Positions 50,330-53,422 of a stretch of 64,000 nucleotides of DNA are shown piece by piece (within the stretch, counting starts at the first letter, position 1; the number at the start of each line of letters is the position of its first letter). The notes beneath the pieces are model-generated. The model had not been told where the DNA came from. It saw nothing but the letters and a program-made list of their open reading frames with translations, and did no database searches. The position numbers were made by a program, and so were the translations under genes. Location: the NCBI GenBank assembly GCA_913048595.1, contig CAJWVJ010000002.1, positions 1-64,000 on the forward strand, in the 5' to 3' direction. Source of the stretch: an uncultured Alphaproteobacteria bacterium. Its GTDB lineage: Bacteria > Pseudomonadota > Alphaproteobacteria > Puniceispirillales > Puniceispirillaceae.

Positions 50330-51697
50330 CTATTCCGCCAGCTTGTAGCTTACCGTCACCGACATATCGCTTCGCTTGTAGTCATATTGCATGATGTTGG
50401 AATCATTTTTCGTTGTCGAAGCGCTCAACCCGATCATCATACTGCCAAGTCTGTCTGACAGGGCCAGGCCGGAAAGCTGCAGGCCCAGGCTGTGGACGGT
50501 TTGCGAGTCACGGCGGAATTTCCGGCTGGTCGGTTCCTGATTGCCGTATTTCGCGTCATAGGCGCTGACCGAGGCGGTCACGCGGCTGTATCTGGTCGGC
50601 GATACGGCGATTCCGGCCATGATCCCCTTTGTCCTGTTTGCATTTGCCATTAGGGCGTTGAAAGCGGTGGTGCCGGGGGTGCGCCGCGACTCCGTCAGGT
50701 TGAAGGTGCTGTGACTTCCTTCGGCGAACAGCGCGAAACGCGACAGGAAGGTCCGCGAGATACCAAGCCTGTAGTCACGCGAATGGCCGTCATTCTGGTC
50801 CGCCGTGGTGAAGGCTGCGGAGGAGACGCGGTTGATGATGCTGTACTTGGCCGACAGATAGCTCTGCAGCCCAAAGGGAAGGCTGTGTCCTGCCGTCACG
50901 CCGCCGCTGATCACATTGCTGTCGGATGACGTCTTCGACAATGTTTCCGAGACCCGCGCATTTGGCGAGAGCCGCAGGCTGCCAAGCTTCAGTGACGCGC
51001 CGGTAAAGACACTTGTCGTGCCGCTTGTCAGATATTCATATTTGCGGCCCCGCTTTTCCTGATGCGAAGCGCCGATGGTCAGGCTGTCGCAGTCCTGATT
51101 GGCGAATTCGTAGGTTGCGGCGACCGACAGCCCGGCGGTGGTGGCCAGTTCGCGAATGGTCTTCCGGGCACCGCCGAAGGGTTCATAGGTGCTTGTCGAG
51201 TTGGCGGCACCCGGCGACAGCTTGAATTCAAGACGTCCGGATGAGGGGTAGCTGTTGGCATTGTCGCTGCCGCTCATTCCGATCGAGGCCGACACGATCG
51301 TGCGCCAGCGTCTGGCACGCCCGTCGATGATCGAGGTCAGCTCGGCAACACGCGCCTTCTGGTCGGCGGCGAGGGGTAGCTGCGCCAGCGCCTCAAGCTC
51401 GCCGGCGGCAAGCGTGTCATTGCCCAGATTCACCAGAATTTCAGCGCGGATCAGACGAAGCCCGACATCCGCGGGGCGTTGATTGACCAGACGTTCCACG
51501 GCTGACAGGGCGGCGGGAAGATCGCCCCCGGCCAGACGTTTGGAAATGAACTGCTGGTTCAGCCTCTGATTGTCCAGATCGGCAAGGATATCCATCCAGT
51601 CGACCTCGGCACGCACCGGGGCGGCCATGAACAGCGACAGCACCGATGCCGCAATCGCGGCAACAAGGGACCGCTTCCAGAAAATCACGCCTGTCAT
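50330..51697 (-). CDS. TPR plus C-terminal beta-barrel outer-membrane protein (surface lipoprotein assembly modifier-like)
   Basis: Signal peptide, TPR-like AALSAVERLVNQRPADVGLRLIRAEILVNLGNDTLAAGELEAL, then alternating amphipathic strands to a terminal ...SVTVSYKLAE. Confidence 0.55.
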   Translation of the reverse strand: MTGVIFWKRSLVAAIAASVLSLFMAAPVRAEVDWMDILADLDNQRLNQQFISKRLAGGDLPAALSAVERLVNQRPADVGLRLIRAEILVNLGNDTLAAGELEALAQLPLAADQKARVAELTSIIDGRARRWRTIVSASIGMSGSDNANSYPSSGRLEFKLSPGAANSTSTYEPFGGARKTIRELATTAGLSVAATYEFANQDCDSLTIGASHQEKRGRKYEYLTSGTTSVFTGASLKLGSLRLSPNARVSETLSKTSSDSNVISGGVTAGHSLPFGLQSYLSAKYSIINRVSSAAFTTADQNDGHSRDYRLGISRTFLSRFALFAEGSHSTFNLTESRRTPGTTAFNALMANANRTKGIMAGIAVSPTRYSRVTASVSAYDAKYGNQEPTSRKFRRDSQTVHSLGLQLSGLALSDRLGSMMIGLSASTTKNDSNIMQYDYKRSDMSVTVSYKLAE

Positions 51698-53322
51698 TGT
51701 GAGCCCATCCCGTGGACAGTGCCCTCTGCCAGTGTGGTACCGTCAGGCTTTTCGATATTGATTTCGTGGCTGGCGATATTTCCGGTGGATGCAGCCGCGC
51801 TGTCGTCCCCGCCGATGGCGAAGTTGGACAGATAGGCATCGCTTCGCAGCACAATGGATCCGGGCAGGCTGCCGCCGCCCTGGTTGGTCATGGTGACGCT
51901 GCTCACGCCATCGCTGGTCCAGTCGATCTGGTTGTACATGGCATCGTCACCAACCTGCGCGCCCGTCTGGCTCATCCCGTAGGGCTGAAGCGATGCCGCG
52001 CTGTCGTATTCGGCGCGGGTCTGGGCAAAACCGATCAGCTGCTGGCCGTTGGCCTCGGTGACGATGCTGTTGCTAAGCGGGCTGGACGCGCTGTAATCGA
52101 TGGTCACATCCATCTAGAAGGCGATGTTTGTGTCGACCGAGCCGTCGCCGCTGTAATCAAGCGTCGTACTGCCGTTCGAAATCACCGTCTTGATGGTGCC
52201 GTTGGCGAAATTCCAGGTGTTGGTGACGTCGTAGCTGCCGCCGCATCCGGACGCGCCGCTGTTCACGCAGGCGATGGCCACATCATTGGCCTGATAGACC
52301 GCCGATCCGGTCAACCCGCCATTGCGAAGCTGGTCGATGTTGGTATCGCCGAGATATTGCGCCCCGCCGCCAAACAGGGCGGCCGCGCCCGCGCCCAGAT
52401 TGATGCCGGCAATATCCATGTCGTCCGAGCCGGCTTCGCCTTAGGTGACAGCCGTGGACAGGGCGGTGAAGACCGCTTCGAGAATTTCGGTGTCATTGGT
52501 GACGGTGGCGTCGCCGGCCGTGGCGCTGGCGATGCTGGCGCCAAGGTCGCTGTTGACGACAATCTGGTCCGGAATCCCGTCATCATCCGAGTCGATGGCG
52601 GGCACAACCTCCAGGCTGTCCACCCCGAGGGCTACGGCAATCTCGGTTGCCGCATCCTCGCCGGTGCTGGCCTCGATGGCCTCGATGGCTTCAGGCGTGG
52701 CCGGTTCGGGCGTCGCCGGCGGCTGGTCGGGAAGAATGGTGGTAGCAAAATTCGGGCGGGTCAGATCAACGCTGCCAAAGCTGTTGGTGACTTTCACCGC
52801 GCCAAGCGAGGCGCCGAAATTATTTGGTCCCGGCCCGACCAGGACCACCTGGCTGGCGCCGTCCTCATCGACAATCCCGGCAACCTGCGTGCCGCGGATG
52901 CTGAGGCTGGCTGTGGGAAGTGTGACCTTCATCGCCTTCGGGCTGGATTTCGCCAGCTTGCCCGAGACAAAGCGAAACGCGCCCCTGGTGATGTTGGTGG
53001 TCATCGACCCGGTCTGCGAGGCCGGGTCGTAAACGAATTCATCTATGACCAGGCGGGCGCCGCTGCCAAGCGTGAAGACGGTTTCGTCAACAAGCATGAT
53101 CTGCATCCGGCCCCCTGACGCGACCTCGATTTCATCGCCAAGGAAGATTTTCGTACCAGAGAAAAGCTGGCCGACGCTGGCTTCACCCTCGACGGCCGAG
53201 ACCCGCACGACATCCCCACGAAGGGCTGCCGCGACACCAATGAATTCCGCCGCCGCCAATCCGGCGAAACCCGCCAGTGCAGCCCAGACACAGACCCCGC
53301 CCACAACAGAGACAACACGCAT
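51694..53322 (-). pseudogene. FecR-domain exported protein, followed in the same frame by two coding segments beyond TAA (52443-52441) and TAG (52116-52114)
   Basis: ORFs 52441..53403, 52114..52419 and 51694..52113 are in one frame. Signal peptide and FecR domain are only in the first. Could also be three short genes or readthrough. Confidence 0.6.
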
Positions 53323-53422
53323 GAAACAAACCCGCGCAACCAGAAAACGGCCGCAAATCTCACATGGTTGAAATCTGCGGTCACGGAATGTTTGATAGAT
53401 CAATTAATTTTTTTGAATTTGC

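Follow-up and report, generated by a model that had tools for sequence, protein, structure and literature searches.

Three kinds of described system lie closest to the locus analyzed here: Slam proteins of type XI secretion (SlipAM, PF04575, DUF560), FecR-domain proteins (PF04773) and the nonsense pseudogenes of bacterial accessory and surface genes. Marine barrels of the type XI kind rarely have a known cargo barrel domain nearby (PMC12282271). FecR was not mentioned in the type XI secretion literature that was searched, PMC12282271 included.

The window (the whole 64,000-nucleotide stretch that was analyzed) belongs to a draft genome of 1.87 Mb in 135 contigs, 69% complete. On its minus strand, a gene for an exported FecR-domain protein lies directly upstream of a gene for a TPR/beta-barrel protein, and the FecR frame is interrupted by two in-frame stop codons. 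The closest named relative that carries the FecR gene is the SAR116 MAG MED-G06 (contig NTKV01000067.1). We consider it likely that this is a single exported-FecR gene, paired with the TPR/barrel gene, that has recently gained two nonsense substitutions; that is, an ordinary case of recent pseudogenization.

Reading frame of the FecR gene

A sequence-only reading of the window had described three ORFs in one minus-strand frame, separated only by a TAA and a TAG. Translation of positions 51694-53403 bears this out: between ATG 53322 and the TGA at 51696-51694 the frame contains exactly two internal stops, and strong coding signal is found on either side of both. The frame and stops of the ORFs as first drawn are thus retained, but their start is not, as ATG 53322 is a better start than the TTG at 53403. 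The N-terminus encoded from ATG 53322 (MRVVSV...) matches MRVFSF... in the closest relative.

Segment 1 (52444..53322, minus strand, as are all features described here) encodes a signal peptide (MRVVSVVGGVCVWAALAGFAGLAAA-EF, with no lipobox Cys), a FecR domain (PF04773, 4.7e-9, 37 bits versus a Pfam gathering cut-off of 24) and then an acidic Pro/Ala-rich linker. It ends at the first in-frame stop, TAA (52441..52443). Segment 2 (52117..52440) continues the same protein for 108 codons past the TAA, the first ATG there being at 52419; it contains a conserved Cys pair and is beta-strand-like. Following the second in-frame stop, TAG (52114..52116), segment 3 (51697..52113) encodes the C-terminal part of the same protein, with a conserved GTVHGM at its end. 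The natural stop, TGA (51694..51696), overlaps the ATG of the barrel gene at 51697, confirming the ATGA overlap between the third segment and the TPR/barrel gene that had been noted earlier.

FecR protein and barrel partner

The partner gene (50330..51697) is intact and encodes a TPR domain and a predicted outer-membrane beta-barrel. Its product has TPR domain matches and 51-55% identity to syntenic orthologues, and a predicted model of low-to-moderate confidence has TPR helices followed by ~14 strands. This barrel had been called Slam-like, a description that holds for its architecture but not for its family assignment. As in the Slam/type XI systems, a TPR domain precedes ~14 predicted strands and the gene adjoins one for an exported protein. 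In contrast to Slam, the barrel falls below the Pfam cut-off: SlipAM did not match the window barrel (the best family member had an E-value of 0.049, and 12.3 bits versus a cut-off of 22 were reached in a distant relative). The partner protein also differs from Slam partners, as it has neither a lipobox nor a TbpBBD domain; no Pfam match to a TbpBBD-type domain was found in the read-through protein or in an intact orthologue. Foldseek matches to the barrel model were confined to generic TPR-barrels and porins (PelBC, BcsC and FapF) and had low TM-scores, and PDB sequence profiles gave nothing meaningful.

The window protein resembles FecR-domain proteins in that it passes the Pfam cut-off, but it is unlike a typical FecR protein in having an export signal at its N-terminus and a long C-terminal region without a known family (segment 3 and the C-terminal region matched no Pfam family), and in that no anti-sigma regulator context was seen among the adjoining genes. 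Structure prediction for the intact FecR protein gave a mean pLDDT of 33 and no fold for segments 2-3.

The FecR gene is continuous in related genomes

Using the read-through frame as a query against same-genus genomes, four full-length orthologues (G001, G002, G003 and G009) were identified, each of which is one uninterrupted open frame of 554-583 codons, measured stop to stop. The read-through protein shows 63-68% identity to these over ~520-540 residues, almost its whole length. By segment, identity to the relatives is 72-75% in segment 1 (counted from the mature N-terminus), 61-65% in segment 2 and 49-57% in segment 3. The alignment gaps are all multiples of three and hence in frame. In the alignment, the TAA column is occupied by Glu, Glu, Glu and Asp in the relatives and the TAG column by Ser in all four. 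Both stops are single G:C to T:A transversions, 327 bases apart. Gene order is also conserved, running from a sulfatase and/or MFS transporter gene through the FecR gene, the TPR/barrel gene and TauE-like and EamA-like genes to a hydrolase gene (no MFS gene is present in G001, and in G003 and G009 the contigs are short and end within this order). Because the four orthologues are continuous and syntenic, the locus is read as one gene with two nonsense codons and not as three genes. Orthologues present as three separate genes, which the sequence-only reading had named as a finding that would count against it, are absent among these four relatives.

The segment boundaries could also suggest that termination-reinitiation yields each of the three segments as a separate product. 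An ATG lies 8 codons past the TAA and another directly past the TAG, the third segment runs into the barrel gene through the ATGA, the ATG after the TAA is missing in the relatives (which have Leu or Phe there) and relaxed constraint is not detectable. Nevertheless, we regard such a functional split as very improbable, for several reasons. First, no relative has a divided gene, which contradicts the earlier suggestion of an unusual split surface protein. Second, inspection of the sequence revealed no Shine-Dalgarno at a useful distance from either internal ATG. Third, segments 2 and 3 are without a signal peptide, even though the family protein is exported. Fourth, the ATG that follows the TAG corresponds to an internal Met conserved in all relatives. 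Finally, the constraint signal stems from a long branch that predates the stops.

Readthrough or suppression of both stops, yielding a full-length protein, had been proposed as well. Each stop lies between stretches of frame that are open and under constraint, as such a mechanism would have it, but other features of the genome leave the proposal unsupported. The genes for RF1 (with its PET motif) and RF2 are both intact, and TAA and TAG serve as ordinary terminators (49 contig genes end in TGA, TAG and TAA 29, 16 and 4 times, respectively). None of the nine tRNAs detected in this 69% complete genome has a suppressor anticodon, two different stop codons would need to be read and nothing comparable is found elsewhere in the sampled 349 kb. 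We judge this the least probable of the explanations. It is very doubtful that the gene still works, whether as three coupled cistrons or via two-stop readthrough, with leaky termination tuning C-terminal export and perhaps barrel expression.

Sequence quality

The main rival to recent nonsense inactivation is that the two stops are miscalled bases, arising from consensus or assembly error, and that the real gene is intact. We consider this unlikely. It would fit a draft that is incomplete and divided among many contigs, and the remainder of the frame appears fully constrained. Both changes are of the G:C to T:A type, but so are 51 of the gene's 103 nonsense routes, and the occurrence of two such changes is therefore unremarkable. 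Two independent miscalls would be needed in one gene, with none elsewhere on the 69-kb contig: over the ~57 kb of the contig compared with relatives' proteins, no other truly interrupted gene was found. Further stop-containing matches on the contig proved to be antisense shadow frames or extensions past the natural start or end of real genes.

In a reference-free scan of sampled stretches totalling 349 kb of the genome, the FecR locus ranked first and was alone in having in-frame stops flanked by strong coding without a recognizable new gene start. Elsewhere in the genome, ORF pairs that share a frame without a gap mostly have a Shine-Dalgarno and a start codon and look like true neighbouring genes. 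As there is no other interrupted gene on the contig and no comparable case in the scan, generally poor sequence quality is unlikely.

Selection and age of the stops

A codon model with separate omega values for the window branch and the background was applied to the gene. For segment 1, omega was 0.065 on the window branch versus 0.085 in the background; for segments 2-3, the values were 0.167 and 0.157, with omega = 1 rejected (2dlnL 18.1) and equality with the background not rejected. The upper limit for whole-gene omega on the window branch is ~0.19 (2dlnL 4.9 at 0.20). Relative-rate counts of lineage-specific residues in the window and in its nearest relative, MED-G06, were 13/14, 11/12 and 13/10 in segments 1, 2 and 3, respectively. 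No relaxation is detectable past the stops, on a branch whose dS is near 1 and which is too long to reveal a recent loss. The omega tests thus indicate that decay is not far gone, not that the gene still works. From these values, the time without constraint would come to no more than about a tenth of the branch for the whole gene, while a fifth would be allowed on segments 2-3 only.

The earlier claim that frameshift and decay are lacking agrees with the in-frame gaps and with the lack of measurable relaxation of selection. Given this intact frame and the absence of measurable relaxation, the stops are taken to be recent and most of the branch to have been constrained. Of the three options offered by the sequence-only reading, recent nonsense inactivation is therefore the one supported, by intact continuous orthologues, by the absence of frameshift and decay and by conserved flanks.

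Some observations count against the pseudogene interpretation. Nonsense changes make up ~2.1% (103/4860) of single-base changes in the FecR gene, so a second stop implies some tens of neutral substitutions, a number that is compatible with the omega estimates but not visible in them. The absence of any frameshift beside two stops also counts against it, as does the barrel gene, which has an omega of 0.19 (omega = 1 rejected) and shows no decay.

Pairing of FecR and barrel genes

Across the order, FecR-domain exported proteins repeatedly adjoin one family of TPR/beta-barrel genes, in several orientations. Besides the window locus (50330-53322), paired loci are L007, L008, L011, L012, L013, L016, L017, L019, L091 and L112. 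Distant FecR/barrel loci occur in G008, G022, G025, G028, G034 (three loci), G037, G075 and G076. Of these, L007, L013, L091 and L112, which lie outside the profile seed, have E-values of 8.8e-58 to 4.7e-127. Because distant FecR loci adjoin relatives of the barrel gene, the pairing is conserved even where the C-terminal region of the FecR protein diverges. It is a reasonable inference from these sequences that the FecR protein and the barrel may form an export or display pair.

FecR-domain relatives are also abundant on IMG/VR contigs (L113-L192), with at least 520 confirmed among the 600 candidates listed, at 29-41% identity; no close viral relative of the FecR protein was present among the matches listed. 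PHROG 37870, which is annotated as of unknown function, matches an intact orthologue at 8e-25.

Loss of the pair in related genomes

FecR-domain genes have a patchy distribution in the family, being found in 21 of 61 genomes, with at most one per genome in the window's genus; no FecR paralogue was found in the window's assembly. At the site that holds the pair in the relatives, G005 has neither the FecR nor the barrel gene, and its MFS gene adjoins TauE directly (L082:5980-6090). G007 retains, beside TauE, 36 codons of the barrel C-terminus with an in-frame TAG inside them (L081:10045-10152), and no FecR gene lies upstream of this relic. The loss in G005 and the relic in G007 show that the pair is dispensable and has been lost more than once. 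The allele in the window resembles an early step in this process of loss.

Conclusions and comparison with known systems

In the window, the two stops replace sense codons and the frame is otherwise intact. Under recent nonsense inactivation, the cell would produce no more than a truncated FecR fragment of ~293 residues that carries the signal peptide. As segments 2 and 3 have neither an export signal nor a ribosome-binding site, they would probably not be delivered and the full-length product would be lost, while the barrel gene would not yet have decayed.

The case itself matters little, as a further example of accessory surface gene loss in a SAR116 genus in which the pair has been deleted elsewhere. 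It does serve as a warning for annotation, since gene callers would give three proteins where the family has one. Of more interest than the two stops is the pairing of FecR and TPR/barrel genes across the order. With C-terminal regions that vary, this pairing could be a sign of an outer-membrane export pair, as yet undescribed, in marine Alphaproteobacteria.

Compared with nonsense pseudogenes of bacterial accessory and surface genes, the FecR gene is unusual in that its two stops are not accompanied by a frameshift and its partner gene is still intact. In other respects it follows their pattern: the nonsense changes are single-base changes confined to one lineage, the gene is intact in relatives, and it is a dispensable gene whose whole locus has been lost elsewhere in the genus.
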